Positions 22,681 to 41,681 are shown, counted from the stretch's first letter. The stretch is DNA of 64,000 nt from Thermodesulforhabdaceae bacterium (GCA_037482015.1 JBBFKT010000009.1:1-64000); one strand, 5' to 3'. Numbers and translations are program-made. Notes: generated by a model from the letters alone, not told the origin.

Positions 22681-23838
22681 CTAAGTCGGCTGAGGTTTTT
22701 TCAAAAAAAGGGACGCTGCCGAGTAAAGACAGTCCGTCCCAATTTTCATCGTCTTTTTTACCGCATTGTCGAGCAGTGCAGGAAGTCCACCTTTTTCATC
22801 TGGGCTAAACCCAAAAACTCTTTTCCAGACTGAACTATTTTCCATGCAAAGATATACGCACACATCTGGAGCAAAAGATCGAATCCGATCCAGCATAAAC
22901 CGATAAAGTTTTACTCGAATGTCCACAAAATACCGCTTTTTCCCATCGGGGCTAGAAACAAATTCGCCGCTTATGAGTCTCCACCTGGGTTTATTGCTTA
23001 AAACTTTCTCTTTCAATTCCGGCATAAACCTGAAAGCTCCCAGGCTGATATAGACTATTCGATCCGGGGGAATATTTTCAAAAAGCCTTTTTACTGTGAA
23101 ATCATATTCGTCCTCCCAACCCGGGAAGAAAAACAAGGGATCAAAGTGAAAACCAAGAAAATAACCCCAATCCAAACACTTAAGGGCCGCATCAAGGCGT
23201 TGATCAAGAGTAGCGGCTTTTTCTTCCTCGTGAATTGAAATGGATGGAGCGTTCAAAGACCAGCTAACTATGGTGTGTCCACTATGATCAAGGTGTTTCA
23301 GTCGATCAACGAAAAGGGTTTTTGTCTTGAGTTCCAGCACGGCATTGGGCTGGCGGGCAAAAAAAGGGACAACTTGTTCGGAATATCCAATCCAGGGATC
23401 GAGAAGAAGTGAATCCGTAAACTCCCCAGTTCCAACTCGAAATAACGTATTTCGGTGCTGGTTTAAAATTTTTCCCACTTCATCAAACATTTCATCTAAG
23501 TTCCCGAATATTTTAAGGTAAGGCTGGTTCAGGTAGGCTTGAAGAATGCAGTAGGTGCAATTTAGAGAACAATTTTCAGCAAAATGAAGAATGGTGTAAC
23601 CACAACAGTGGTAGAATCTGGTAGCCGGGCAGGATCTCAAAAACCGTCCTTTAAACCTGACAACCAGCAAAGTTCTAGAAGGGTCTTTGGGTGTGATATA
23701 TTTCCAGTCTAATTCGGAAGGGATAACGTGAAAATCGGCTGAAGGTAGAGTCTTATGCAGTTCTCTTAATAAGGGACTTTCAAGGACCGGCTCTTCTACA
23801 AAAATTTCATCGTAAGACTGGTTATTCTCGGTCGCCAT
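22681..23838 (-). CDS. Spore photoproduct lyase-like radical SAM protein
   Basis: The 385-residue protein has a radical SAM cluster motif Cys90-x3-Cys94-x2-Cys97 followed by LQAYLNQPYLKIFGN, as in the SPL family that repairs UV thymine dimers in spores. By eye-alignment the hydrogen-donor Cys of B. subtilis SPL (ACTSDIVGID) corresponds to Phe here (EFTDSLLLD), so chemistry may differ. Nothing else in the window suggests sporulation. The start overlaps the ParB-like gene by 17 bases, so the two are translationally coupled. Confidence 0.8.
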   Translation of the reverse strand: MATENNQSYDEIFVEEPVLESPLLRELHKTLPSADFHVIPSELDWKYITPKDPSRTLLVVRFKGRFLRSCPATRFYHCCGYTILHFAENCSLNCTYCILQAYLNQPYLKIFGNLDEMFDEVGKILNQHRNTLFRVGTGEFTDSLLLDPWIGYSEQVVPFFARQPNAVLELKTKTLFVDRLKHLDHSGHTIVSWSLNAPSISIHEEEKAATLDQRLDAALKCLDWGYFLGFHFDPLFFFPGWEDEYDFTVKRLFENIPPDRIVYISLGAFRFMPELKEKVLSNKPRWRLISGEFVSSPDGKKRYFVDIRVKLYRFMLDRIRSFAPDVCVYLCMENSSVWKRVFGFSPDEKGGLPALLDNAVKKTMKIGTDCLYSAASLFLKKPQPT

Positions 23839-24787
23839 AGCACATGATTTTCAGGACTTCCGGAGTGATTTTTTCGCTTATGGCTTTAAATTTAGTCATC
23901 AAATCTTCAGGCTTGGTGAAACTAATCTTAACCTCCCAATCGTCTCCCTCAAACTGGTCTGGCGGTGTAAAGACAACTCCTTGGGGAAGTTTAAGAGATT
24001 CGACAAACTGTCGGAAGCTGGCTTCTCTTGCGGCCAAATGTGGAAAAAGGCGATTTTTGAAAAAGTTTCTAATACGTTCGGTTTTCTGTCTGGCATTAAG
24101 AGTAGTGTCAAAGATAATAGACGTAATTTCTGAAGATGTTAGAACATCAGCCGGTGATATATTTTGCTGTCGAGCCATGTCTTCAAGATAATCCAGAATT
24201 TCCCGCTGAAGACTTACTGAACATTGAATCTGATTAAACATTCTGAGAACTTCCCTTTTTGACCTTTCATCCCAAAGAGACAGTCTTATAGCCACTTTAT
24301 CATCAATGATTCCAGTGCGTATTGCCTGTCGAAAATCCTCCGATGCTGTAGCAATTGCTGTAAGACGTTTGTGTAAGTCAGGCTTAAGAGGTAACCTCAA
24401 GATCGGAAAGAATAACTGTTCTACTTCCCGAACTGAGTAAAACTGCAAGAGTTTTTTTACAATTACGGCCTTTTCTTCAAGATTAAGGGGTCTTTCTGAA
24501 ATTTTTATCAGTATTCTTGCCCTGAGTAGGTCTTCTCTGGGGGTTGAAATTGGAAAAACGATGCAAGGAACATGTATAAGACTCTTATTTTTAGCCCACT
24601 CCCAGCGAACATAACCGTCAACAAGAGCGTAACAATCTGGTTGTTCTTCTAAAACCCACAGGTGAGCCTGAATTCCAGCCAATTCTAGTATTCCAGAAAG
24701 GCGGTTATCCGGCGGAGGGGCGATGTAAAAATAGTCGGAAAAAGCGATCTGACCTAGCGTTAAAAGCTTTATAGAAGAACCCTTCAT
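23822..24787 (-). CDS. ParB-like protein partnered with the SPL-like gene
   Basis: The 321-residue protein begins with a ParB/Srx-type domain (residues about 8-110; DGYVRWEWAKNK resembles the DGxRR nucleotide-binding box, LIKISERPLNLEEKA the following helix). The rest is helical, ending with a compact beta region. It lacks the gene pairing (ParA) and position of chromosome-partition ParB. Its ATG overlaps the stop of the OmpA-fusion gene (ATGA) and its 3' end overlaps the SPL-like gene, so all three are coupled. A DNA-binding or CTP-hydrolysing role is inference. Confidence 0.7.
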   Translation of the reverse strand: MKGSSIKLLTLGQIAFSDYFYIAPPPDNRLSGILELAGIQAHLWVLEEQPDCYALVDGYVRWEWAKNKSLIHVPCIVFPISTPREDLLRARILIKISERPLNLEEKAVIVKKLLQFYSVREVEQLFFPILRLPLKPDLHKRLTAIATASEDFRQAIRTGIIDDKVAIRLSLWDERSKREVLRMFNQIQCSVSLQREILDYLEDMARQQNISPADVLTSSEITSIIFDTTLNARQKTERIRNFFKNRLFPHLAAREASFRQFVESLKLPQGVVFTPPDQFEGDDWEVKISFTKPEDLMTKFKAISEKITPEVLKIMCYGDRE

Positions 24788-26310
24788 CTAAGTTTGGCCA
24801 AGATCTTGTTAACCAGCGAACTGCAGGCTCTGGAAAGTGCTTGTAAATCTCCTTCTGTAATTTCATTTGCAGCAGCCATAATCTTGCCAGATTCTACATC
24901 AATCAGTCTTACATCGATTCTCATAGTGTTTCCTAAACGGCTAACCGATCCCGTAAGTATGGCTTCAGCTCCTACCATACGACCTATTTCGCGAGCTTTT
25001 CCTTCTTCTACAATCCCGGTCTGACCAAGTTCAAGTTCTTTCATAACCTTTTCAAGTAGACTTCGTTCCACGATACTAAAACGACCACTATCCACAGCTG
25101 CCGTTGTAAGGAATTCAGCTATCATGCGCCCCATGGGATCCTGACGTCCCGATCTTTCTAGAAAGTCCAGTTCAAGCACTGCAAGCTTTATAGGTTCTCT
25201 TTCCGGCTTTGTTGACTCTACCTGTTTAGATCCTGATGTTGATGAAGCCGTTTCCACTGGCCTGGATGATTCTACATCTTGGACAGGCTGTGCTTGAACA
25301 GTCTCTTTATCTTGAGAAAAAACCTTCTGAGACTCTTCGGATTTTATGGAACCGATGTTTACCAACTCAACTCGCCTGTTTTGAGCTCGTCCCCAGGATG
25401 TATCATTAGAAGCCACAGGTCTAGACGATCCAAAGCCTTTCGTTTCCAGTCGATTTGGGTCAATACTAAAACGCTCTACGAGGTATTTCTTAACACTTTC
25501 TGCACGCTTCATGGAAAGTTCAAGGTTATAGGCATCACTTCCAACGTTATCAGTGTGTCCTTCTATGAGTATCTTTGAATCTCTAAGGTTTGGGTCATTC
25601 AAAGCTCGAGCAATTTCTTCTAACTGGCGATGTGATTTTGGCGATATGTTTGCACTGTTCGTAGCAAAATGGATTTTTATAGGAATGCTTGGAGCTGCAC
25701 TAACACCTCGGGTTTTTTTAGTAAGGGCTTCTGTAATGGCCTGAGCAGTTACAAGCTGGGATGATTCATCAGCATCACCAGGCTCCTCCGCTTGTTTTTC
25801 CTGAGGCTTAAGTTTAGTTTCGCAGTCTTTAAGATTTCCTTCAATCAAGGATACATAATTTGTCACATCAGGATATTTTTTCTGCACTTCCTTAGAACTC
25901 GCAAGATCGAGAAACCGCCGATAAGCTTTGATCGCTTCAGCGTATTGTTGCCTTTTCCTATAAATATCCCCAACACCGGCTAGAGGATGAGGAAAGTCTG
26001 GTTTTAATTCCGAAGCTTTACGATATGCGTTAAGGGCTTCATCTAGAAGGCCTTTTTCTTCAAGAGCAAGTCCCAGGTTGTTGTATGCTTCTTCCATATC
26101 GGGACAGACTTCTATCGCTTTTTTTAGAAGACGTATCCGCTCATCAATGTTTGTTACATTTAAACTCTCAATAAAGAGGCGTTTACCCTCATCACATCCT
26201 GCCCAGACAATATCAGACCAAAGCAAAAAGATTGCAAACAAACAAATTAAAATCGTCAGTCTGATACGGATTTTTATAGTTTTTTCCGAGACCGTTTTCA
26301 ACATCCTCAT
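24784..26310 (-). CDS. TPR-OmpA-FlgO-like three-domain envelope protein
   Basis: The 508-residue protein has a signal anchor (residues 17-37), two or three TPR repeats (50-140), an OmpA-type peptidoglycan-binding domain (211-320; EGHTDNVGSDAYNLELSMKRAESV) and, after a Ser/Thr/Glu linker, a C-terminal domain (about 380-508) of FlgO/CsgG type (FSIVERSLLEKVMKELELGQ, GAEAILTGSVSRLGNTMRIDVRLIDVESGKI). It would sit in the periplasm bound to the wall. It follows the caspase gene by 24 bases and overlaps the ParB-like gene by four. Confidence 0.8.
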   Translation of the reverse strand: MRMLKTVSEKTIKIRIRLTILICLFAIFLLWSDIVWAGCDEGKRLFIESLNVTNIDERIRLLKKAIEVCPDMEEAYNNLGLALEEKGLLDEALNAYRKASELKPDFPHPLAGVGDIYRKRQQYAEAIKAYRRFLDLASSKEVQKKYPDVTNYVSLIEGNLKDCETKLKPQEKQAEEPGDADESSQLVTAQAITEALTKKTRGVSAAPSIPIKIHFATNSANISPKSHRQLEEIARALNDPNLRDSKILIEGHTDNVGSDAYNLELSMKRAESVKKYLVERFSIDPNRLETKGFGSSRPVASNDTSWGRAQNRRVELVNIGSIKSEESQKVFSQDKETVQAQPVQDVESSRPVETASSTSGSKQVESTKPEREPIKLAVLELDFLERSGRQDPMGRMIAEFLTTAAVDSGRFSIVERSLLEKVMKELELGQTGIVEEGKAREIGRMVGAEAILTGSVSRLGNTMRIDVRLIDVESGKIMAAANEITEGDLQALSRACSSLVNKILAKLR

Positions 26311-26334
26311 ATAAGTATAACCCTCTCTCTTAAT

Positions 26335-29300
26335 TTAAGTTTTATCAACCAAAACAATTGGAAAGTCCGGGACATTATCTGGCATTTGAAAAATTGGAGT
26401 TTGATTTCCATTCGTCAATGTGGCCACTGTTTCCATTATGTGATAATAAAGCATGGCAACAGTAACCTTACCTGACTTAATAGTGGGCATCTTTCCCGAA
26501 AGACCTTCAATCAACGCTTTTGTGAAAGCACCATTACCCCATTCAGGAGCTTCAAAAGATTTTTGAGTTTTAGAAGAAGAAGCAAATACTACGACCCCGT
26601 TTTCCGCTCTTATAAGTTGATTAACCACCCCTGAAACATCGCTTGTAACTCCCACACCTACACCCCTTGTTTTTTTATCTTTTAGAATATTAGCTGAGTA
26701 ACAGGCGTCTAAAAACAGAATAACCTTTCCATTTATTGAAGCCAAGGTTTCTTGAATTGAGTGAGCTGAGACGCCAGTTGCCATTAGTCTTTCCGGATCA
26801 CCATTAACTGGCATGAAATAATAAACCTGGTTAAGATTATCAGTAAGCCCATGACCAGCAAGAAATATCATTGCAACATCTGTAGGTTTGGTACTTTTCC
26901 TTATCCATTCCAATCCATCCAAAATATTTTCCCTGGTTGCTTGTTCGTCCACAATAACTTTCGTAATAACATCCTTATATAGCCTTCCTTTTTGACTTTC
27001 TATTGTTTTAGCAAAATCCATAGCATCCTTTGCCGGGAAAATAAGTTGCATGTTTTCTTTTTGATATTTGCTAACTCCAACCGCCAGCACATACAAGTTG
27101 GGCATAATAATAAATTTACCGTCCTCTTTTGCCTTTTCCTCAAGAGGGGGCTTGGTTTCTAATGACCTAGATTTTTGAACCGCTTCAGTATCAGAAGGAA
27201 CATCGGCTTTAGCAACTAGAGTCTCCTCAGGGGTTCCGTATCGCACTCTAACTATAGACGCTTCACTTGCTCCGTGTTTATTCATAGCGACTACAGATAT
27301 TAGCGAATCCTGTGGAGGAATTGGCAGTGTAAGCTCTTGAACAACCTCCTTCCCAGCAGCCCACTCTCCTTCTTCAATTTTCGCAGGTCTTCCGTCAATC
27401 ATTACCCTTATGGCTTTTACTGGTGCATCAGCCGAAGATTTCAAAGAAAGCTTAAGGTTTATTTCTTTTGCATCAGTCTTATAATCTTTGGGTGGACTTA
27501 AGATACGAACAACAGGAGGTAGAATCTCTGACGGTTTAACGATATCCTTATCGGCTTTCTTTCCCCATTCCTTTTCGGCATACTTTAGAGCTTCACGCTC
27601 ATCCAGTGTTTTAAGTATAGCTAAAGACAAGTCTGGGCGATAATAAGTTGATCGGAATCTCGATATAGGGAAGAAATCAGCTTCCTTATTAGGACCACGA
27701 TTAATATGCCATCCAATGTATTGTTCTGCTCCAGCGGAAGCGTCGTAATATCCGGAAGGAGTCCACAACACCCATTGTTCAGTGTGAGGAACAATAAAAA
27801 GGCTCAGCACTAAAGCGCCATCTCTTAACCTGTGCCATCTTATAGTGCCGTCGGTGTAGGCAGCTACAACAAGCCTTCTATCCTGAGAAATGTTAACTGC
27901 ACGGACAGGGGAAGGCGTAGTGAATTTCCATTTCTGGGAACCGTTTCCATCAAAAAGTCTAAGAGACCAATCGCCTCCCAACACAAATCCTTGCATATCC
28001 GGGCTTATAGCCATACAGTAAATTCGCTCATTAGGATCTAAGGCTATAGGCTTATTCTTGAAAAGAGGCTTGTCGCTATTTTTCCAGTTTGTAATAGGAA
28101 GCCCTTTGGTTATCGGAGGCTTAAACGCATCAAGTTTTTTAGGGTTAATTTCCAAATACCGGTCGTTTATAGAAAAAAGGCCCTTATAATTTGATCCTGA
28201 CCAGAAAAAACCAAAGGCTATTTCAGAACCATCAGAATTTATGAGAAATTCTTCTTGTTTGTCTCTAAAGTCAGCAGTAACCGGGGGGTTGAAAAATTTA
28301 ATAGTGTCGTCTCTGCCTATTTTTCCTATGGAAGGATCACCTGAAACAAAAACTAGCTGATTATTGGGAAGGCTTCTTAAACTAAGAATTGTATCTCGAC
28401 TGTCTGTAGAAATATCCTTAAAAGCCCCTTTGCCCCCGTTTTCCCAGCACCGAACAGGATTTATACCGTTTTGTAAGCTCCAGCGTCCGGCGGCACAGAG
28501 CCTACCATTGCTTAGCCAGGCAACACTACTCAGGTTTCCATTTGATATACCCTGAACCGATGGCGAAAATTCCAGTTTTAGATTATCCCCCGAAAAAACA
28601 TCCACTTTGGGAGAATCCGTATAACCCACAGCAATAAGAGAACCGTTCTGATTGAAAGAAACAGAAAAGGGACCACGTCCTGGTGTTTTTTGCTTCGCAA
28701 TAAGTGAAAAGTCTTTTCTATAAAGCCGTATAAAGCCATCATCAGAAACTGTTACAAGTCTTCCCTGGCGGTCAAAATCTACACCATAAACAGAACCACC
28801 ATACTGGAAGTCTTCAAAAACAATACTGTAATCTTCAGCGTTGTAGATTCGTATGCCTTGATTCTTTGCAAGACCCACAGCAAGGTATTTACCATCGGGG
28901 GAATAGGCTAGATCCAGCACCGGCTGAGGAAGACCGCCAAGACGGCGTAACATAATCCCAGAATGCCAATCAAAAACATAAACAGAAAACTTCCCATCCC
29001 ACTGTTTGCCTGTAAATCCGCCACAAGCAACCTGTTTTCCATCGGAAGACATAGCAACGGCGTAAATTTTTCCTTCGTTCCCTTCACCGATGGGGGGATG
29101 AAGCGTAGCTCGCAAATCACCGGTAGCACCATCCCAGACCTTTACTGTCTGGTCATAGGAAGCTGTAACAAGATAGGTTCCCAAAGGATCCGATTTTACT
29201 TTTCTAATACTTGCAGTATGAACAGGCGCCTGAATTTTCAAAACAGGTTCAGACGAAGACTGCGAAGGAGCCTGTTCAGCCAGGGAAATCCCAACAGCAG

Positions 29301-29373
29301 CAAAACAGGCAAAAAATAACCCAAATAACAAGGCTATTCTTCTGTTCACTAATAACTTAATTACTCTATTCAT
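26335..29373 (-). CDS. Exported WD40-caspase-like protein
   Basis: The 1012-residue protein starts with a signal peptide (residues about 10-33), then WD40-type repeats over about 50-560 (TASYDQTVKVWDGATG, DGTIRWHRLRDG and others), a beta-sandwich-like middle, and a C-terminal caspase (peptidase C14) domain from about 760. The catalytic pair is His841 in LAGHGLTD and Cys891 in FLDACYS. Bacterial caspase-like proteases with WD40 repeats are usually cytosolic; here export to the periplasm is predicted. It lies among envelope-protein genes, 15 bases from the CsgG-like gene. Confidence 0.88.
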   Translation of the reverse strand: MNRVIKLLVNRRIALLFGLFFACFAAVGISLAEQAPSQSSSEPVLKIQAPVHTASIRKVKSDPLGTYLVTASYDQTVKVWDGATGDLRATLHPPIGEGNEGKIYAVAMSSDGKQVACGGFTGKQWDGKFSVYVFDWHSGIMLRRLGGLPQPVLDLAYSPDGKYLAVGLAKNQGIRIYNAEDYSIVFEDFQYGGSVYGVDFDRQGRLVTVSDDGFIRLYRKDFSLIAKQKTPGRGPFSVSFNQNGSLIAVGYTDSPKVDVFSGDNLKLEFSPSVQGISNGNLSSVAWLSNGRLCAAGRWSLQNGINPVRCWENGGKGAFKDISTDSRDTILSLRSLPNNQLVFVSGDPSIGKIGRDDTIKFFNPPVTADFRDKQEEFLINSDGSEIAFGFFWSGSNYKGLFSINDRYLEINPKKLDAFKPPITKGLPITNWKNSDKPLFKNKPIALDPNERIYCMAISPDMQGFVLGGDWSLRLFDGNGSQKWKFTTPSPVRAVNISQDRRLVVAAYTDGTIRWHRLRDGALVLSLFIVPHTEQWVLWTPSGYYDASAGAEQYIGWHINRGPNKEADFFPISRFRSTYYRPDLSLAILKTLDEREALKYAEKEWGKKADKDIVKPSEILPPVVRILSPPKDYKTDAKEINLKLSLKSSADAPVKAIRVMIDGRPAKIEEGEWAAGKEVVQELTLPIPPQDSLISVVAMNKHGASEASIVRVRYGTPEETLVAKADVPSDTEAVQKSRSLETKPPLEEKAKEDGKFIIMPNLYVLAVGVSKYQKENMQLIFPAKDAMDFAKTIESQKGRLYKDVITKVIVDEQATRENILDGLEWIRKSTKPTDVAMIFLAGHGLTDNLNQVYYFMPVNGDPERLMATGVSAHSIQETLASINGKVILFLDACYSANILKDKKTRGVGVGVTSDVSGVVNQLIRAENGVVVFASSSKTQKSFEAPEWGNGAFTKALIEGLSGKMPTIKSGKVTVAMLYYHIMETVATLTNGNQTPIFQMPDNVPDFPIVLVDKT

Positions 29374-29388
29374 ACCCCAATCACCCTA

Positions 29389-30147
29389 TTATAGATTTTC
29401 AAGGTTTGATGAAGGTTTAGCCGTTCCCCCTTCTGGTGTTTCCTTGGGATGGGAAGGACCTGAAGGCTCGTGACGTCCTTCAATGGATGGGAGTTTTTCT
29501 TGCTTTTCCTCAGAAGAAAGGGATCTCCCCGATGGTTCCTTACTTTCCTTACTGATCAGGGATGATCCCTTTTGACAGTACTCCTGGTAAATCTCGCCAA
29601 TAAGACTGTCAGACTGCTTTTCCAAGGCACTAATAACCGCTCTTGATGGCTCTAACCCAGCACTCTTTCCCGACCATACCTTTGACGAAATAGCTTGACC
29701 TGTTTTGGCATCAAGGAGTTTTAAACTGAGGGTCACATAAACTGACTTAAGATTTGTCTGGAGCCCTTCCATAGAGCGAACTCTAGCGGTAAGCTGGCCG
29801 GCCAAAAGAAGATCAGCACCAAGTTTTTCAGAAAGGGTCACCGCTCCAACTGTATCACCTCTAAGAATCAGTTGTTTTTCCTGTTCAGGGATTATTTTCT
29901 CCACCGTTGCCTGATCGATAATTTGAAGTCCACAGTTCAATAACTTTGATTCGAGCAAAGCTCCAACATCCTTCACAACTTCAGAAGTAACATCCGGGGA
30001 ACCGCTTCCCAAAATCACAGCGACTTTTTTATTTAAAAGTTCAGCAGGACATTGCCCTTGACAATAACCTGCAACAACCAAACTAAAGAAAACTCCAACT
30101 GATATACACAGCCAGAAAATTATCTTATGCCCACCAAATCGAACCAT
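29389..30147 (-). CDS. Exported CsgG/FlgO-like protein
   Basis: A 252-residue protein with a signal peptide (FWLCISVGVFFSLVVAGYC), a CsgG-like core (VAVILGSGSPDV, LESKLLNCGLQIIDQATVEKI, LGADLLLAGQLTARVRS, VYVTLSLKLLDAKTGQAISSKVW) and a low-complexity Pro/Ser/Glu tail after about residue 190. The core is the same fold as the C-terminus of the neighbouring OmpA fusion, so the two may be paralogues that associate. Function unknown. Confidence 0.65.
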   Translation of the reverse strand: MVRFGGHKIIFWLCISVGVFFSLVVAGYCQGQCPAELLNKKVAVILGSGSPDVTSEVVKDVGALLESKLLNCGLQIIDQATVEKIIPEQEKQLILRGDTVGAVTLSEKLGADLLLAGQLTARVRSMEGLQTNLKSVYVTLSLKLLDAKTGQAISSKVWSGKSAGLEPSRAVISALEKQSDSLIGEIYQEYCQKGSSLISKESKEPSGRSLSSEEKQEKLPSIEGRHEPSGPSHPKETPEGGTAKPSSNLENL

Positions 30148-30192
30148 ATCGACCTCAGTTGACTAAAAACATGTTAGTTTATATTAACCCTA

Positions 30193-30657
30193 TCACTCAA
30201 GCGGAACTTTTTCTACAGTATCGCTAGTAACCTCTTCCTTTTTAGTCTTGGGATCAATTTTGTATGTGCGAACTCTAACTGGTCTAACCTTTTTCCCACC
30301 AGGTTCTTCTATAATTTTACCCTGATCTACGGGTTCCGCAACTACCTTTTCAGTTTGATCTTCTTTAACAATAACAATGGGCTTATTTTGAAGTGCCGCT
30401 TCACGCATAGCCTGATTTCGTTTTTCGATAGCCCAGGCGGTCAAAGCTCCAAGAGCCGCACCAGCCACAGCACCAATAGCTGCTCCTTTTTTACCTCCCA
30501 CCATGTATCCGATTAATCCACCAGTAAGGGCTCCCACAGCGCCTCCGGTAACTGCTGCCTGTTGTTGCTGTTGACCTTCGGGTGTGGTTGCGCATCCAAC
30601 CGTCACCGAAATAAAAGCCACCACAACAATTAGAGAAACAATCCTTCTGAACACCAT
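30193..30657 (-). CDS. Glycine-zipper lipoprotein
   Basis: Start taken at the ATG at 30657, with GGGAGG seven bases upstream. A signal peptide ends in a lipobox-like VTVGCATT, then a Gln run, then a glycine zipper (AVGALTGGLIGYMVGGKKG and AAIGAVAGAALGALTA) that should pack in a membrane. The charged tail is rich in Lys/Val. Similar small zipper lipoproteins sit in the outer membrane. It fits the envelope theme of the operon. Confidence 0.75.
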   Translation of the reverse strand: MVFRRIVSLIVVVAFISVTVGCATTPEGQQQQQAAVTGGAVGALTGGLIGYMVGGKKGAAIGAVAGAALGALTAWAIEKRNQAMREAALQNKPIVIVKEDQTEKVVAEPVDQGKIIEEPGGKKVRPVRVRTYKIDPKTKKEEVTSDTVEKVPLE

Positions 30658-30726
30658 AAGCATACCTCCCATTTTACATGCTATTATTTCACCTAAAAGA
30701 AGCCCCGATACGTTCTACAAAAAAAT

Positions 30727-32097
30727 TTATAAGTCCAAAACGCTTTTATATTTCTCTGTTAGTTCTGGACTTTTTATGACTTCTTTAACTCTTTCGGTGC
30801 TTACATTAACAAGTTGAGTTGGCACTCCTTCATCTATTTTTTCTTTTGAAAGGGCTCTTTCTTTTTCTACCTTAATTTTTACTATATCCCCCCGCTCTTC
30901 ATGAATAACGAAGGTTTTTGTGCCGTATTTTTCGTTAAGCGATTTAAGAACAACTCCCTCGAGTATGTCTGAAAGATGCTCCCTAGGCCCAGCAAATTCT
31001 ACTTCAAAAACAGTATCCCCATTAGCCAAAAATTCCCTAAATGTTACGTTCAAAACCGATCTTATTCCTAAGAGCTCTTTCTTAAGCATCTTAGCAAGCT
31101 CACGATCAGGAATACCTGAAAAAGTAAGAATTACATCGTGGGAAGGTCGCATAATATAATCTTTAAAGATATCCTGGCTAAAAACATCACCTACTCTTTT
31201 ACCAACATCCATTATAGCTTCATCATCATCGTTATACATAACCCCTTGCTGGGGACGAAAATTTTCCGAAAATATAATTTCAGAGGAGTGGTTATCAACA
31301 GCTTCGATTGACCAGGCAGTAAGCAGAGTAGTTTGCACTTCAAGCCCGCTAGCTAATTTTACCTTTTGAGATTTTTTAATTTTTATAAGCCCGTTTATGG
31401 AAATATCACTTGGTTTTTTAGCTATTTGAGTAGCGGCTTCACGGGTAAGCCCCTGGGCAATTAGGAGCTTAGCTCTTTCCTGTTGTTCTCTAGAGGCTTC
31501 TTCTTCGGAGATAACTTTATATCCGAAGTTTTTCAGCCGATTTGCAATTTCTCTATTGCACACATCGCACGGAACCTTATCACCGTAAGAATCAGGCGAT
31601 ATTATATACAATCCTACAGAAAAAGTAGGATTGCCTTTTTCCTTTATTATGGCAACGCGTTCCATCTTAGAAAGAGACGAAAGAGCCTGACGTATGGGTG
31701 ATGCTAAGACTTCAGCCTTTATCCACACATGGTAAAAACCATCGGGTTGAACACCACCATTTACTATGGTGATGATCTTTGTAATTGCTCCCTCGCTTTT
31801 AGAAATTACTTGATCTCTAACCAAAGTATAATTTTCTACAATGGTCTGTGAAGAAACATAGCACCCTACAGCTTTTTCGATAGCCTGTCGCTTAGCATCT
31901 CTTAATGCTTCATCGTAGGCTAAAGTCTTATCTTTGTAAAAATTAGGATCAGAAAGCCCTTCAGCAGATACAACAATTGTTGCAGGTTTTAAGGATGATT
32001 CTGCCGCACTGGCATCATCGGCGAACGGCACCACAGATAGATTTATCAATATGCAGATCCCAAGTATACTGAATAAAATTAAACTGCGTTTTAACAT
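30727..32097 (-). CDS. Exported FlgT-N/LPP20-like protein
   Basis: From the ATG at 32097 (GGGAGAG six bases upstream) the product is 456 residues with a signal peptide ending near DDASAAE. The first domain (SAEGLSDPNFYKDKTLAYDEALRDAKRQAIEKAVG..V) is the FlgT N-terminal type seen in exported proteins, followed by a domain with two Cys (VPCDVCN) and regions resembling CsgG and repeated alpha/beta modules. No flagellar genes are nearby, so an H-ring role is unlikely. Confidence 0.65.
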   Translation of the reverse strand: MLKRSLILFSILGICILINLSVVPFADDASAAESSLKPATIVVSAEGLSDPNFYKDKTLAYDEALRDAKRQAIEKAVGCYVSSQTIVENYTLVRDQVISKSEGAITKIITIVNGGVQPDGFYHVWIKAEVLASPIRQALSSLSKMERVAIIKEKGNPTFSVGLYIISPDSYGDKVPCDVCNREIANRLKNFGYKVISEEEASREQQERAKLLIAQGLTREAATQIAKKPSDISINGLIKIKKSQKVKLASGLEVQTTLLTAWSIEAVDNHSSEIIFSENFRPQQGVMYNDDDEAIMDVGKRVGDVFSQDIFKDYIMRPSHDVILTFSGIPDRELAKMLKKELLGIRSVLNVTFREFLANGDTVFEVEFAGPREHLSDILEGVVLKSLNEKYGTKTFVIHEERGDIVKIKVEKERALSKEKIDEGVPTQLVNVSTERVKEVIKSPELTEKYKSVLDL

Positions 32098-32196
32098 TAC
32101 ATTCTCTCCCACAACGTATTCAACTTTTCCCACCTTAAACTGGGGGCACGTAATTAAACCGCACCCCCAGAAAAGTATGGGCACATAAATAGAGTC

Positions 32197-33099
32197 TTAT
32201 TCTTTCTTTTCAGGAAGAGGACTTACAGTAGGGGGAGATGACGGCACAGCCGGCGGCGCTGGCTTGCCTTTAAGTTCATTATCCGTTCCAGTAGGAACGG
32301 GCAACGAACGATACTCGGTTCTATCTATTTTCGTTCCTCCGGTAGCCCCTTGAGAGGTTTTAAGTTCATCTGTTTGAGCACCTCTACCTATAACTTCAAC
32401 AACATTGGGTCCTTCGTATCTAATTCGCTGTCCGAGAATATCTTTAACTTTTCTCACATCAAGCTGAAGTCTCACAAAGGCATTACCAGATTCATCCCAC
32501 CCCCAGCCTCTGTCTGGGCTATCTATGTCAACATTGGGAATGTAAGCTCCATAAACTGCTGCAAGAACCTTTGAACGGTTGATGTCTTTTGTGAGAATAA
32601 AGTTTTCCGCTTCGCTCACACTCATAATACGTTCACCCACAATTTTAGCAGCCATTTCGTCGTAAGCATTAAGAAGAGCAGCACGAAGAGCCATAAGAGG
32701 AGGTTTTGACTCAGGCGTCATTGTCCCAAATCCATAAGCATGAACTCTCACATTCTTAAAAGACATCCGCTCTCCTGCTACGTTTATAACATCCCCCAGA
32801 TCTATGTAACCCGTGCAGAAGGCAATATCCTTATCCTTATCGTAAATCATTTTTTCCACGTGAATGCCCTTTATTAGGGCTCCAGCCTTTTCCTGGATCC
32901 TGTAAGCTGCTTCTTCTGTAAGTCCAAATTGACCTTCACTTTTCACCTTATAGCCGATGACCATTTCAACAATATTTCTTTTAAGATCCTGTTCTGCCAT
33001 CTTTTCTGACATAAGCTGGCGATTACCAGCCCACAATGTGGAACATACGAAAAATCCAAAAACTACCAACACTAAACCCTTCAAAAGTAATTTTTTCAT
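32197..33099 (-). CDS. Exported LPP20-like protein
   Basis: A 300-residue protein with a signal peptide (MKKLLLKGLVLVVFGFFVCSTLWA) and a core where ALRAALLNAYDEMAAKIVGERIMSV and VRLQLDVRKVKDILGQ resemble the LPP20/FlgP family. The last 60 residues are Pro/Ser-rich and probably disordered. It is two bases from the upstream gene. I infer a periplasmic or outer-membrane location. Confidence 0.6.
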   Translation of the reverse strand: MKKLLLKGLVLVVFGFFVCSTLWAGNRQLMSEKMAEQDLKRNIVEMVIGYKVKSEGQFGLTEEAAYRIQEKAGALIKGIHVEKMIYDKDKDIAFCTGYIDLGDVINVAGERMSFKNVRVHAYGFGTMTPESKPPLMALRAALLNAYDEMAAKIVGERIMSVSEAENFILTKDINRSKVLAAVYGAYIPNVDIDSPDRGWGWDESGNAFVRLQLDVRKVKDILGQRIRYEGPNVVEVIGRGAQTDELKTSQGATGGTKIDRTEYRSLPVPTGTDNELKGKPAPPAVPSSPPTVSPLPEKKE

Positions 33100-33101
33100 C
33101 G

Positions 33102-33770
33102 TTATTTTCCTCCCTGAGATTTACCTGATAACCATTGCCAAAATCTATCCCACCATCCAGATGTTTCCTCCTTAGGCGTTTCTTCTCTGGGGGGAGTTTC
33201 TACTTTTTCCTCTGAATTGGATACCTTACCTGGCGAACCGCTAATCTGTTGCTTTTCCTTTTCCAATTGACCAGCATCTTGGCTTTCGCTTTTCGGTGTC
33301 TCAAAGCGAAATTTTTCTGAAGAAACAACCCCTCCTGAAATATCAATAGTGCCCGTAGTCCAATAGGGAGAAGGGTTTCTCGGGCGAAAAATTTCCTGGA
33401 ATTCCCTAGCCACTCTATCATCTTCTGTAGTTCTCACTTTAGACATATTAACTGAGTTCTTATCAGAATTAGAGGGGCTTGAATCAGGCGACCTGGAATA
33501 AACCTTAACATTATCAATTACAATATCTAAATCACCAGATGGCAGGGGCTTAACTCTAGCATTAAATTCAATCGTGCCATACTGAGGAAGCTTTCCCTCC
33601 TGCTTGAGTTTCATAACTATTTTTTCTGTAATTTGCTTTTTGTGTTTTGCCCATTCGTCCATAAGCTCTTTTTGATCAGCCGAAACTCCCCCAACCCAAG
33701 CAAGAGAAGAAAACCCCACCACCATTACGACCAAGAAAATCAACTTATTTACTCTGATTAGCAGATTCAC
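33102..33770 (-). CDS. Exported hypothetical protein
   Basis: The likely start is GTG at 33770, with GAGGG eight bases upstream and a signal sequence right after (LIFLVVMVVGFSSLAW). The 222-residue product has a helical segment (ELMDEWAKHKKQITEKIVMKLKQEG), a beta region and a disordered acidic middle, ending in a Trp-rich amphipathic tail (WWDRFWQWLSG). No family recognised. It is tightly linked to the LPP20-like gene downstream. Confidence 0.6.
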   Translation of the reverse strand: MNLLIRVNKLIFLVVMVVGFSSLAWVGGVSADQKELMDEWAKHKKQITEKIVMKLKQEGKLPQYGTIEFNARVKPLPSGDLDIVIDNVKVYSRSPDSSPSNSDKNSVNMSKVRTTEDDRVAREFQEIFRPRNPSPYWTTGTIDISGGVVSSEKFRFETPKSESQDAGQLEKEKQQISGSPGKVSNSEEKVETPPREETPKEETSGWWDRFWQWLSGKSQGGK

Positions 33771-33811
33771 TGCTTTTTCCCTCTCTATAATTTTGCATCC
33801 AAGCAAAAAGA

Positions 33812-34471
33812 CTAAAACTCTTCAGGTCTAATAGCCTTACCACCTCCCTGGAATGTTTTAAGCTTTTTGACAGCGCCGCCAGGTTCAGTAGTTCCACTAG
33901 GAGGTCTGCCACCCGGACCGCAAATAGCCTTCGCTCGCTTCAATCCGTCCTGAGCAGGGTAAAAGTTGGAATTTATAGAAAGAGCTCGCTCAAACATCTC
34001 TTTAGCTTTAGGACACTGACGCTCTGCAAGATAAATTTCTCCCAATTTGGCATAAATTTCGGGTGAAACAGAACCAAGGTTTACAGCCATTTCGAGTTCT
34101 GGTTTTGCTTCCGGAAAACGATTCAGCTTAAACAAAAGAAGACCCAAGGCTTCATGTGATCCCAGATGTCGTGGATTAGTTCGAATGGCATCACGATAGG
34201 CGGCTTCTGCTTTGTCAAACATATTCTTCTTTTCATAAGCTTGTCCCAGATAGTAATAGGCTTCCGTATAATTCGGGTTCATACTTACGGCCGCCTGAAA
34301 TTCAGAAATAGCACTGTCAAAATAGCCATCTTTAAAGTAGGAAAGTCCGCTCCTGAAGTGATCTTCTGCTGTAGGCATAGGAGGCGTTACGGGAGGCGGT
34401 GGTGGAGCACATGAAGCAAGCCATATAAGGCAAACCGCCATAAAAGTTAATTTTCCTAAACTAGTTCTCAT
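33812..34471 (-). CDS. TPR lipoprotein
   Basis: From the ATG at 34471 (GGAGG six bases upstream) the 219-residue product has a lipoprotein signal ending LASCAPPPPP and then about four TPR repeats (residues 33-170), e.g. YYYLGQAYEKKNMFDKAEAAYRDAI. A Gly/Pro tail follows. It resembles outer-membrane assembly or scaffold TPR lipoproteins. It overlaps the upstream membrane-protein gene by 11 bases. Confidence 0.75.
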   Translation of the reverse strand: MRTSLGKLTFMAVCLIWLASCAPPPPPVTPPMPTAEDHFRSGLSYFKDGYFDSAISEFQAAVSMNPNYTEAYYYLGQAYEKKNMFDKAEAAYRDAIRTNPRHLGSHEALGLLLFKLNRFPEAKPELEMAVNLGSVSPEIYAKLGEIYLAERQCPKAKEMFERALSINSNFYPAQDGLKRAKAICGPGGRPPSGTTEPGGAVKKLKTFQGGGKAIRPEEF

Positions 34472-35297
34472 CGCTTTCCTCCTTCTCATTATTTTTACTC
34501 CAAACTCGCTTAAGCACTTCCCACAAAAATACCCATCCCTGAAGCAGGATATATCCAACAAGCGGGAATATAAGTGCACCTACCCATATTCCCTGGTGCG
34601 TCAATGACACAGTGTATAGTAAAGAAACATTGGAAGGCGTAGCATTCCAAAGTCGTATAAGATCCACGAGAAGAACTAAAGGTGTAAAGCAAACAGCAAC
34701 TATTGAGAGTTCTATACAAAAAAGATAAAAGATGAGAAACTTTAGAATAAGCCAATCAACAAATATAAGCGATTGGTTTTCGACATTAACATTCTTAAAT
34801 TCAACTTCTATATTTTCGGGATAAATCATAATTGAAGACCATTGGTAGAATAAGAAAGCAGCAATAATTCCACAAAGTAAAACAGGCGGATTACCCATCA
34901 GAATACTCCATATTAACCCTCCCAGTAAGGAAACCAGACACAAGCCAAAAATCACCGATCCAATAGCAGTTCTTAGTAAGTCAGGCATAAACAGACTTTT
35001 CCGAAAGACTTGAACTTTTCCAATAAAATCAATCGAGTTTTTCCAGGTTAGAAATAGGAGAACATAAAGAATAACCAGAATAAATAGAACTAATACAGGA
35101 TCTAATCGTCTTAATCGAACAGCAAAAGATAAAAGTAAAATTATATTTAGAAAAGATATTAGAATCCCGGCATAAAACAACAAGGGAGAAGATCTATAAA
35201 GGAGTGAGACCCAGATTTTTTCCTTTCGAACCATAAGCATAGAAAGTATGTGATATGCCTTTTGAATCACCGGATTATACCAGGCATCTTGCATCAT
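34461..35297 (-). CDS. Multi-helix membrane protein, first gene of the envelope operon
   Basis: A 278-residue protein with about six hydrophobic helices (e.g. YAGILISFLNIILLLSFAV, VLVLFILVILYVLLFLTW, LIFPLVGYILLQGWVFLW) and a charged, Glu-rich tail. There is no recognisable family motif. GGAGTGA precedes the ATG. It heads the eleven-gene run and overlaps the TPR lipoprotein gene. Confidence 0.6.
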   Translation of the reverse strand: MMQDAWYNPVIQKAYHILSMLMVRKEKIWVSLLYRSSPLLFYAGILISFLNIILLLSFAVRLRRLDPVLVLFILVILYVLLFLTWKNSIDFIGKVQVFRKSLFMPDLLRTAIGSVIFGLCLVSLLGGLIWSILMGNPPVLLCGIIAAFLFYQWSSIMIYPENIEVEFKNVNVENQSLIFVDWLILKFLIFYLFCIELSIVAVCFTPLVLLVDLIRLWNATPSNVSLLYTVSLTHQGIWVGALIFPLVGYILLQGWVFLWEVLKRVWSKNNEKEESDEN

Positions 35298-38181: not shown

Positions 38182-39416
38182 GAAAATGCTCCTTTCAGCC
38201 CGTTGTAGATAACTTCTTCTGAAAGTTCACCAGCGGGAATCCCGGGTGATATATTCACGGCAAGCACTCTTCCCTTAAAACCAACTTCCACGAATGGCGC
38301 CTTAGATTTCATGAAAAATCGATGTCCTTCCCCCGTCATAGCTTTAAGCACCAAATGAGGATCAAAAATCGAGAAGTGCTCCAGTAAAAACACTGCTTCT
38401 TCAAAAACATTAAGACTTGGGGAACTGGCAAGACTATCAGTTCCAAGAAGAAACGGAATGCGACGCTTCAGAATTTCCACTGGAGAGATATTCCCCACTC
38501 CAAGCTCATGATTGCTTCTTGGACACAAACAGACCATGCACCGTCTTTTACTTATTATGTCCCATTCGTCTTCACTCAGATGAACACAATGAACTAGAAG
38601 AGTCTGTTCATCAAGAATTCTAAGGTTGTCTAGATACCTTATAGGGGAAACACCAAGTGGTTGCCACTCGTCGTCCCACTTGCCAAGTTCTTCTAGAAAT
38701 TCTTTCCAAGGTCCCTGTCCTTTCTCGATGAGCCTTCGCTCTCCCTCATTTTCCCCTACATGTATAGAGAAAACTCGTCCTCGCCTGCGACACCAATCCT
38801 TCGTTTTTTTTATGAGATAAGCCGACGTAGAATAGACAGCGTGGGAGACTATGCTGAATTGTCCTACCCAGGAATTTCCTTCATATCCGAAGATCGGGCG
38901 GCGCATTGTCCCAAAAACCTGCTTGATTAAACTTACCGTAAAACCAATCCATTCCCAAAAAAGATAACGCCAGGGCAAAGTTCTGGAATCAATATTCCTT
39001 GAAATTTTTACCAGAGGCACGTTGGAAACATCTCCCACTATTGTGGTGCCACTCCCAACACACGCTACTGCAGCATCAACAAAAGCCTTTTTGATTTCTT
39101 CCCACGATAAAGCACTTCGGCGCAGCGTAAGCTCACGAACCCAGGTGATGTAATCTCCTGACGGGATATTTCTATAAAGTCCGGATAAGGCGGAAAGTTC
39201 GAGATGAGTATGAGCGTTTACCAAACCAGGTATTATGGCTCTACCATCGAAATCTAGTACATTTCCTTTGCAGAAGCTACTTTTTCCACGATTTACATCT
39301 ACCACCACACCTTGAGACAAATCCCACACAACGCAAGCATTTTCTATCCATCGTCCATCTTTACCAAGAACCCATGGAACTCTTACGGTAAGGAAGTTCT
39401 CAGTCGATCCACTCAT
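38163..39416 (-). CDS. Amidohydrolase, probable aminofutalosine deaminase (MqnX)
   Basis: From the ATG at 39416 (AAAGGA upstream) the product has 417 residues and the amidohydrolase metal motifs: VNAHTHLELSAL, the later IHVGENEGER, VHCVHL and LGTDSLASSPSLN. Located between mqnA and the MqnE-MqnC fusion, it fits MqnX, which deaminates aminofutalosine. A general guanine/cytosine deaminase role is less likely in this context. It overlaps the fusion gene by 17 bases. Confidence 0.8.
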   Translation of the reverse strand: MSGSTENFLTVRVPWVLGKDGRWIENACVVWDLSQGVVVDVNRGKSSFCKGNVLDFDGRAIIPGLVNAHTHLELSALSGLYRNIPSGDYITWVRELTLRRSALSWEEIKKAFVDAAVACVGSGTTIVGDVSNVPLVKISRNIDSRTLPWRYLFWEWIGFTVSLIKQVFGTMRRPIFGYEGNSWVGQFSIVSHAVYSTSAYLIKKTKDWCRRRGRVFSIHVGENEGERRLIEKGQGPWKEFLEELGKWDDEWQPLGVSPIRYLDNLRILDEQTLLVHCVHLSEDEWDIISKRRCMVCLCPRSNHELGVGNISPVEILKRRIPFLLGTDSLASSPSLNVFEEAVFLLEHFSIFDPHLVLKAMTGEGHRFFMKSKAPFVEVGFKGRVLAVNISPGIPAGELSEEVIYNGLKGAFSWIPAQ

Positions 39417-41640
39417 AAGCCATTGTCCTTTGCTTGGGAACAAAGCCAGCTTCTCGGATGATGCGATGCATTTCCTCAAGAGACATTCTGAATCTTACTC
39501 CAGCCGCTGCAACCACATTTTCTTCAATCATGGTGGAACCAAAGTCGTTTGCACCAAAGAACAAAGCCGCTTGAGCCACATGAGGACCCATGGTGACCCA
39601 GGAAGCCTGAAGGTTGTCGAAGTTATCCAGGATAATACGGGAGATAGCAAGAAGCCTCAAATAGTCAATACTCATAGCCTGTTTGGTCTTGCCCTCTAGA
39701 GCAGTATTCCTGGGCTGAAAAGTCCATGGAATAAACGCCGTAAAGCCCCTTGTTTTATCCTGAAGCTCACGAAGCTTAATAAGGTGTTCAATACGATGTT
39801 CTGGCCTCTCCACATGTCCAAACATCATCGTGGCGGTGGTTCTAAGCCCCTGACGGTGAGCTTCTTCCATAACTGCAAGCCACTCTTCAGCAGTGCACTT
39901 ACGAGGTGAAACCACACGGCGGACTTCATCAACCAGAATTTCAGCTCCCCCTCCCGGTATAGAATTGAGTCCAGATGCTTTAAGTCTTGAAATGACTTCC
40001 GAAATACTGAGCCGCTCTTTGTTAGCGAAAAAAACAATTTCAGGTGGAGAAAAGGCGTGAATATGAATCTTGGGAAAAGATGTTTTAATAAACGAGAGCA
40101 TATCTTCGTAGAATGAAAGCGATAGATTTGGGTTATGACCTCCCTGAAGAAGTATTTGAGTCCCTCCAAGGCTTAGAGTTTCTTCGATTTTGCGATAGAG
40201 TTCCTCCTTTGTAATAACGTAAGCGTCTGGATCTTCGGAAGATCGGTAAAAGGCGCAAAACTTACACCCGGAGGCACACACATTGGTATAGTTTATATTG
40301 CGATCCACTACGTAGGTCACATAAGGATGCGGGTGTTTATTCAGGCGGATATTGTGAGCAAGTCTCCCAAGAGTAAAAAGATCTGCTTTGTTGTAAAGCA
40401 CCAGGGCCTCATCTGAGAAAATGCGCTCTCCTTTTTCAACTCTATGAATAATATCTTCTAAGCTTCCATTGCTCTTTGAAACCCATGGTCGGCAATTTTT
40501 TGGTAGAGTTGTTTCTTCGGCTACACGGTTTTTAGAGCAGGACTCAAAAAATTTTCTGCCTTTATTATTGTGGAGATGTCGAAACAAACCATCGCGTTCA
40601 ACCGGATCTAAACCTGCCGAACGGATGATTTCTTCAAGCTCTTCTCTTGTCAGGCACTCTTCTGATTCAGCTCCTGCCATGTGAGCTATTTTTTCTTCAA
40701 CAACGGTTCCATCGAGATCGTCGGCACCGAAGTAAAGCGCAAGCTGAGCTAGTTTTACGGTGAGCATGATCCAGTAAGCTTTTATGTGAGGCACATTATC
40801 TAATAGGAGACGGCTCACGGCTATTGTTCTCAATATATCAACTCCTGTCGGGGAAGAAACAGTCTTTAAGGGCGAAAGCTTTGACTGGTAAGGAAGTAGA
40901 ATAAAGCATGTAAAACCGCCAGTTTCGTCCTGAAGCTTTCGAATATCTAGAATATGATCGACTCGATCTTCGATCGATTCTATATGTCCAAAAAGCATTG
41001 TGGCATTGGTTTTAATGCCTCGTTTGTGAGCTAGACGATGGACTTCAAGCCATCTATCGCCGCTTATTTTATTCGGGCATATTTGCCGCCGCACACGATC
41101 TGCAAAGATTTCAGCCCCTCCACCGGGCATCATATCCAGACCGGCTTTACGAAATCGATCAAGTATCTCTTCTACTGATGCGTTCTCAAGTTTGGCTATA
41201 TGATCGATTTCAACAGCAGTAAAAGCCTTGATAACAGCTTGCGGCCGAAGGCTTCTGGCAACACGTAGAATATCTTCGTAATAAGTCATGGGAAAATATG
41301 GATGACACCCGCCAACAATATGAATCTCTTTAACTACTGGAGAAGTTTCTTCTTCAAGCTTGCGACGTATTTCATCAATTGTAAATTCAAAAGCGCCTGG
41401 ATGTCCTGGTGGTTTTCCGAAGGCGCAAAATCGACAGCCGTTAAGGCACACGTTGGAATAGTTTATATGGCGATTTACAACATAAAACACTTGATCGTCA
41501 TGTAAATCGGTTTTTACTTTATGAGCCAGAGTTCCAAGGGTTAACAAATTGGCATGGCAAAAAAGTCGTATTCCGTCGTCTCGATTTAACCTCTCACCCG
41601 ACTCGATCTTTTTAACGATGTCATCAATTAGATTTTCCAT
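39400..41640 (-). CDS. MqnE-MqnC fusion: double radical SAM menaquinone enzyme
   Basis: One 746-residue frame holds two complete radical SAM enzymes of the CofH/MqnE/MqnC family (numbering here counts from the upstream ATG at 41649). The N half has Cys68-x3-Cys72-x2-Cys75 (CLNGCRFCAFG) and resembles aminofutalosine synthase MqnE; the C half has Cys458-x3-Cys462-x2-Cys465 (CASGCKFCAFY) and TAFIPWTFQPRNT, resembling dehypoxanthine-futalosine cyclase MqnC. A short linker lies at about 365-395. No stop or shift separates them. ATG at 41640 has the better spaced RBS. Confidence 0.88.
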   Translation of the reverse strand: MENLIDDIVKKIESGERLNRDDGIRLFCHANLLTLGTLAHKVKTDLHDDQVFYVVNRHINYSNVCLNGCRFCAFGKPPGHPGAFEFTIDEIRRKLEEETSPVVKEIHIVGGCHPYFPMTYYEDILRVARSLRPQAVIKAFTAVEIDHIAKLENASVEEILDRFRKAGLDMMPGGGAEIFADRVRRQICPNKISGDRWLEVHRLAHKRGIKTNATMLFGHIESIEDRVDHILDIRKLQDETGGFTCFILLPYQSKLSPLKTVSSPTGVDILRTIAVSRLLLDNVPHIKAYWIMLTVKLAQLALYFGADDLDGTVVEEKIAHMAGAESEECLTREELEEIIRSAGLDPVERDGLFRHLHNNKGRKFFESCSKNRVAEETTLPKNCRPWVSKSNGSLEDIIHRVEKGERIFSDEALVLYNKADLFTLGRLAHNIRLNKHPHPYVTYVVDRNINYTNVCASGCKFCAFYRSSEDPDAYVITKEELYRKIEETLSLGGTQILLQGGHNPNLSLSFYEDMLSFIKTSFPKIHIHAFSPPEIVFFANKERLSISEVISRLKASGLNSIPGGGAEILVDEVRRVVSPRKCTAEEWLAVMEEAHRQGLRTTATMMFGHVERPEHRIEHLIKLRELQDKTRGFTAFIPWTFQPRNTALEGKTKQAMSIDYLRLLAISRIILDNFDNLQASWVTMGPHVAQAALFFGANDFGSTMIEENVVAAAGVRFRMSLEEMHRIIREAGFVPKQRTMAYEWID

Positions 41641-41681
41641 TGTAGGCATACCTCTTTACATTAAGGGAAAAATTTTTGTCT

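Follow-up and report, generated by a model that had tools for sequence, protein, structure and literature searches.

A conserved block of nine envelope genes encoding FlgO-, FlgP- and FlgT-like proteins and an exported WD40-caspase in Thermodesulforhabdaceae

A stretch of 64,000 nt from the genome of a Thermodesulforhabdaceae bacterium (GCA_037482015.1, JBBFKT010000009.1:1-64000), referred to below as the window, carries a run of eleven minus-strand genes at positions 22681-35297 (Table 1), nine of which form a conserved block of envelope genes. We tentatively favour, stopping a little short of calling it probable, a reading in which the nine products form a wall-tethered ring or disk at the outer membrane, with an exported caspase docked on it in this family, as a standing scaffold that needs no flagellum. 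A bolder proposal, that Desulfobacterota-like bacteria have a non-flagellar ring of the FlgO/FlgP/FlgT type as an envelope machine in its own right, to which one family has docked an exported WD40-caspase that acts in the periplasm as a component of the structural complex, is in our view doubtful. The evidence consists of the constancy of the block, the likeness of its products to flagellar ring proteins, and the occurrence of its core in other families.

The first-pass annotation of the window had described the eleven genes as a single operon and system. This description suits nine of them, which look like one envelope assembly, and does not extend to the genes for a ParB-like and an SPL-like protein. 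The exact order of the nine genes (TM11, TPR lipoprotein, sec9, FlgP-like, FlgT-like, glycine zipper, LpoB-like, caspase, OmpA-FlgO fusion) is kept in four of the five genomes of the family (G000, G001, G002 and G003), with differing flanks. In two of these four the block lies away from the ParB-SPL pair: in G003 they are on different contigs, and G002 has no ortholog of the ParB-like gene of the window (best match E 1e-8). The fifth genome, G004, has the pair and lacks the block. The two modules touch only in the genus of the window (G000 and G001), where the stop of the OmpA-FlgO gene overlaps the start of the ParB-like gene. Genes lying apart in relatives, which the first pass had named as evidence against its proposal, were thus found for the ParB-SPL pair (G002, G003, G004) and not for the nine-gene block. 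The eleven genes are not one unit, since the ParB-like and SPL-like proteins are cytoplasmic and their genes lie apart from the block in relatives; a single eleven-gene system was rejected for this separation. The pair is a separate, older cytoplasmic module and an unrelated chance neighbour of the block.

All eleven open reading frames are present, and are 2-54 bases apart or overlap, in keeping with the gaps of 0-100 bases or overlaps first claimed. The spacings are 5 bases for TPR/sec9, 2 for sec9/FlgP-like, 12 for FlgP-like/FlgT-like, 54 for FlgT-like/glycine zipper, 45 for glycine zipper/LpoB-like, 15 for LpoB-like/caspase and 24 for caspase/OmpA-FlgO; the overlaps are 4 bases for OmpA-FlgO/ParB and 17 bases for ParB/SPL, and that of TM11 and TPR depends on the TPR start chosen. 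Signal-peptide-like N termini, called with a simple hydropathy and lipobox script and not with SignalP, were found for eight of the nine block proteins in all four family genomes tested, as the first pass had proposed for most of the genes; the ninth, TM11, is polytopic. The TPR and glycine-zipper proteins carry a lipoprotein-type Cys in the four genomes, and the ParB-like and SPL-like proteins have neither an export signal nor polytopic character. Comparison of the congeners G000 and G001 indicates purifying selection, with ratios of nonsynonymous to synonymous substitution (dN/dS) of 0.06-0.20 for the genes with unsaturated dS. A promoter scan remained at chance level, with as many candidates as in shuffled sequence. 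Terminator-like sites exceeded the shuffles, but most of them fall within genes or on the other strand, and they were not used as evidence. The only RNA elements in the window are two tRNAs.

The domains identified are SPL, ParB-like, TPR-OmpA-FlgO/CsgG, WD40 with C14 caspase, LpoB-like, glycine zipper and TPR. The labels of the first pass were essentially right, apart from three assignments, which are corrected here to FlgT-like (from the predicted fold), LPP20/FlgP-like and LpoB-like. The predicted model of the FlgT-like protein (predicted local distance difference test score, pLDDT, 67) has FlgT (3w1e) as its best Foldseek match (E 4e-10, prob 1.00, 408 columns), followed by the Vibrio LPHT ring (8z5n, E 1e-9) and then by HpaA, CsgG and PelC, and its FlgT middle domain is supported by VIA-align (Z 7.9 over 193 residues). 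The FlgP-like family matches LPP20 (PF02169) weakly in its own members (E 0.14) and more clearly in a diverged relative (L131, E 2.6e-4), and its matches to lipoprotein/FlgP chains are also weak (E 0.04-0.2). The FlgO domain (PF17680) is the C-terminal domain of the OmpA fusion (32.8 bits, cut-off 22.6) and occurs only in this fusion in the five family genomes. FlgP and FlgT, which have the SHS2 fold in common, assemble into outer-membrane rings of flagellar motors (PMC12222027), and the H-ring of Vibrio is made of FlgO, FlgP and FlgT (PMC6375700). The block appears to carry relatives of this whole trio away from flagellar genes, the likeness being weak for FlgP.

Using the most conserved gene, FlgP-like, as the query, neighbouring TPR lipoprotein, sec9, FlgP-like and FlgT-like genes were found in Desulfovibrionaceae, Solidesulfovibrio magneticus and one deltaproteobacterial bin, and core neighbours also in G096, G234, G374 and G430; other families thus also have the TPR lipoprotein gene close to the FlgP-like one. 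The identity of the FlgP-like protein is 77-87% in the family and 55-64% in Desulfovibrionaceae and others. We define the core as these four genes together with the LpoB-like gene, which is present in some core loci only (G096, G234, G374); sec9 was not detected in the core loci of G234 and G374. The latter two genomes have an SH3_3-CsgG/FlgO protein in place of the OmpA-FlgO fusion, meaning that the wall-binding partner is kept, with its wall-binding module swapped and its FlgO/CsgG domain retained. None of the core loci outside the family includes the WD40-caspase, and since the core occurs without it, the core does not exist for the caspase. Spread by plasmids was rejected, as a plasmid search found the FlgP-like protein encoded by none. 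Several further features of such loci were observed. The sec9 and FlgP-like pair is duplicated in tandem in three Desulfovibrionaceae core loci (L111, L112, L133). A diverged FlgP/FlgT-like cluster of G371 (L130 7522-9102, minus strand) encodes an HtrA-like Trypsin-PDZ-PDZ_3 protease and a DUF2807 protein, and DUF2807/DUF4097 (head-GIN, toastrack) proteins are present in the diverged FlgP-like loci. Behind the block of G002 lies a gene (L063 15078-19166, plus strand) for a surface-type protein of 1362 aa, which combines SLH, laminin-G-like and lipase-like domains.

The strongest of the other explanations is that the block encodes an accessory flagellar disk, in which the FlgT/FlgP/FlgO-like proteins would form an H-ring or basal disk at the motor and the caspase would serve either as scaffold or for processing. 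Relatives of each of the three kinds of H-ring protein appear to be encoded, with a weak likeness for FlgP, and the window genome encodes FlgH, FliG and rod proteins. FlgH was found in 59% of 395 genomes of the phylum and in 10 of the 12 genomes with a true FlgP-like gene (P 0.075). The disk of Campylobacter contains FlgP, TPR proteins and PflC, a relative of HtrA-type proteases (PMC12222027), to which the HtrA-like protein of G371 offers a parallel. The block is, however, not at a flagellar locus in the window genome, where it lies on contig C9, FlgH on C5, FliG on C1 and the rod proteins also on other contigs. In addition, one member of the family, G004, is flagellated and has neither the block nor an FlgO. 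The draft genomes of G234, which has the core, and of G280, which has the FlgP-like gene, gave no match to FlgH, rod proteins or FliG; the core genes of G234 are 89-98% identical to those of its flagellated congener G374 (dN/dS 0.06-0.19). A strict tie to flagella was rejected, the enrichment being weak and not significant and these two genomes being counter-examples, and a flagellar disk seems unlikely to us.

The roles of bacterial caspases are mostly guessed. The caspase of the block matches Peptidase_C14 with 64.8 bits (cut-off 21.4), and its His-Cys dyad is invariant in seven full-length WD40-caspase homologs. The exported caspase proposed in the first pass stands, as it has an export signal and an intact dyad and is fixed in all four family genomes with the block; it is also the sole C14 protein of the window genome. 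It scores 83 bits against the EACC1-associated subtype NF047832, below the cut-off of 140, and its caspase domain alone has no sequence match in the PDB. Full-length WD40-caspases outside the family were found in G093, G071 and G075, each without the core, and the WD40-caspase is a family-specific addition to the block. A sample of 297 genomes was surveyed, and in those with both gene types listed, 14 of the 72 caspase genes are at most 4 kb from an FlgT/LPP20-like gene, with 0.6 expected for random placement; the partners scanned have DUF4384 in six of six cases and an FlgT_N signal in three of six. Across the phylum, C14 caspase genes recur beside or close to genes for DUF4384 proteins, some of which have an FlgT_N signal (L164-L169), and the genes of several pairs overlap or almost touch. 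In G234 and G374 a separate 273-aa single-domain caspase is encoded a few kb from the core, with genes between (L110 16124-16945; L129 16838-17659). WD40 is the commonest accessory domain of prokaryotic caspase homologs, and OmpA occurs in 14 metacaspase operons (PMC3501461). A literature search returned no description of the nine-gene set, and nothing relevant on LPP20, FlgT or CsgG together with bacterial caspases.

An export signal and an intact dyad, fixed in the block alongside envelope-linked LpoB-, OmpA- and CsgG-like parts, are also what would be expected of the envelope-stress or cell-fate system suggested in the first pass, in which an outer complex senses damage and releases the caspase to kill or remodel the cell. 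That role is unsupported here and we judge it quite improbable, as the block contains no sensor kinase, sigma/anti-sigma factors or toxin-immunity pair and the core is found without the WD40-caspase in several families. The only PADLOC matches were to generic caspase and OmpA-like models, and a defence system was rejected on the same result. Still less probable is a secretion or adhesin-display system, with CsgG-like subunits as the outer-membrane channel and the caspase processing exported surface proteins: the CsgG fold, which the FlgT-like protein also matches in structure, the DUF2807/DUF4097 proteins of the diverged loci and the surface-type protein following the block in G002 are compatible with it, but no dedicated substrate gene is conserved beside the core and the likeness to CsgG is one of fold only. 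A loose run of envelope genes with no joint function is the least credible explanation, as the nine-gene order is identical in four genomes with differing flanks while the ParB-SPL pair separates, even if the conservation of the members is very unequal (23-88%, TM11 being the lowest with 23-46% within the family) and several of them occur apart elsewhere, such as the caspase in the three genomes mentioned above.

In the assembly that we propose, the FlgT-like and FlgP/LPP20-like subunits would build a ring or disk on the inner side of the outer membrane, which the OmpA-FlgO fusion would tie to peptidoglycan and the TPR and glycine-zipper lipoproteins to the membrane. The complex would be a standing scaffold for which a flagellum is not required. 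In this family, the WD40 propeller could dock the caspase on it, and the caspase might cut exported proteins, possibly including ring subunits, under some trigger. Gene order, conservation, domains, export signals, the intact dyad and the separability of the two modules are observed; docking, proteolysis, ring formation and independence from flagella we infer. By analogy, the block proteins probably form a ring or disk, and a role not bound to flagella is favoured, not settled, because both counter-examples, G234 and G280, are drafts. Several points weigh against the proposal. Flagellar genes are clustered, and one lost contig could mimic their absence in these drafts. Flagella are also somewhat commoner in core genomes than in the phylum. 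CsgG, PelC, TolB and HpaA are likewise similar to the FlgT middle domain, and the model of the FlgP-like protein is of poor quality (pLDDT 57), its fold search against the PDB giving nothing above noise. The ring is argued from likeness of fold, and the docking of the caspase from its membership of the gene block.

Table 1 Genes of the region in the window, listed from the first gene of the block.
Feature	Position	Strand	Remarks
TM11, polytopic inner-membrane protein	34461..35297	-	First gene of the nine-gene block; no Pfam family
TPR lipoprotein	33812..34579	-	Core member; likely start ATG near 34489; lipobox LASC
sec9, small secreted protein, fold not recognised	33102..33806	-	No family match; member of most core loci
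FlgP/LPP20-like secreted protein	32197..33099	-	Best conserved gene of the block
FlgT-like secreted protein	30727..32184	-	Annotated GTG; true start likely downstream
Glycine-zipper protein, lipoprotein-type Cys	30193..30672	-	Domain and lipobox scan
LpoB/CsgG-like secreted protein	29389..30147	-	Weak match to PF13036 (E 4e-5)
Exported WD40 and C14 caspase-domain protein	26335..29373	-	His841/Cys891 intact; family-specific block member
Secreted fusion of TPR, OmpA peptidoglycan-binding and FlgO/CsgG-like C-terminal domains	24784..26310	-	Last gene of the nine-gene block
ParB-N-like cytoplasmic protein	23822..24787	-	Separate module
SPL-family radical SAM protein	22681..23838	-	CX3CX2C intact, Glu139 for catalytic Cys; separate module

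The ParB-SPL pair itself recurs in relatives. The SPL-like gene adjoins a ParB-like gene in 29 of 30 loci (that of the window and 29 from relatives), and the loci of relatives are usually without the envelope genes of the block. An acyl-CoA dehydrogenase gene is often found downstream, and purC is upstream in the three relatives scanned, preceded by UvrD in G003. The SPL-like protein matches PF20903 with 99 bits (cut-off 27) and has the invariant residues C90, C94 and C97 of the CX3CX2C motif; against the NCBIfam equivalog TIGR04070 it scores 103 bits, below the cut-off of 400. When the wild-type spore photoproduct lyase chain (EAACTSD) is aligned to the query (GTGEFTD), the position of Cys140, which we take to be the catalytic hydrogen donor of the Geobacillus enzyme, corresponds to E139, which is invariant in ten SPL-like homologs. 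Judging from the sequence, the name spore photoproduct lyase is inappropriate for the protein, because this Glu occupies the position of the catalytic Cys. The ParB-like protein is a profile-level relative of ParB-N, its family profile matching ParB/Noc chains with E 7e-11. PF02195 is matched by four of nine family members, the window protein not among them; by eye, with no reference alignment, the latter has GYVRW for GERR, and ENxQR was not seen. The Glu variant of the SPL type and the ParB-N-like protein make up an uncharacterised enzyme pair that is kept across order and class. Elsewhere in the window, a 749-aa open reading frame at 39400-41649 (minus strand) in which radical S-adenosylmethionine (SAM) domains and CofH/MqnC C-terminal regions are each present twice is apparently a fusion of two menaquinone enzymes of the futalosine pathway, and adjoins genes for MqnA and a UbiX-type flavoprotein.

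Nearly all that is known of FlgO/P/T rings and FlgP disks concerns their part in flagellar torque. If the core is indeed conserved away from flagella, such rings would be independent assemblies and a possible source for recruitment to motors. Likewise, a caspase fixed in a ring complex, together with the phylum-wide closeness of caspase genes to genes of the FlgT/LPP20 fold, would give bacterial caspases a concrete place and testable substrates.

The block resembles the Vibrio H-ring (PMC6375700) in that an FlgT-like fold, a putative LPP20/FlgP-like protein and an FlgO domain are encoded together. It differs in its location away from a flagellar locus, in the fusion of the FlgO domain to TPR and OmpA, in the addition of a TPR lipoprotein and of LpoB-like, glycine-zipper and WD40-caspase proteins, and in the presence of its core in genomes without detected flagellar genes. 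With the basal disk of Campylobacter and Helicobacter (FlgP, FlgQ, the TPR proteins PflA/B and the HtrA-like PflC; PMC12222027, PMC11756786) it shares a putative ring protein of the SHS2 fold, TPR proteins and a protease-family partner, but the protease is of another class, a WD40-bearing C14 caspase; no homolog of the Pfl proteins was identified, and a link to a motor would be conjecture. The SPL domain and the CX3CX2C radical SAM motif are common to the SPL-like protein and spore photoproduct lyase (4fhc, 4rh0), whereas the protein of the window has the invariant Glu at Cys140 and is paired with a ParB-like protein. Finally, prokaryotic caspases and metacaspases (PMC3501461) are alike in the C14 domain with its His-Cys dyad, the WD40 accessory domain and OmpA in the operon; the difference is that the exported WD40-caspase reported here belongs to a fixed nine-gene block with FlgT-, FlgP- and FlgO-like proteins, a set that none of the papers retrieved describes.

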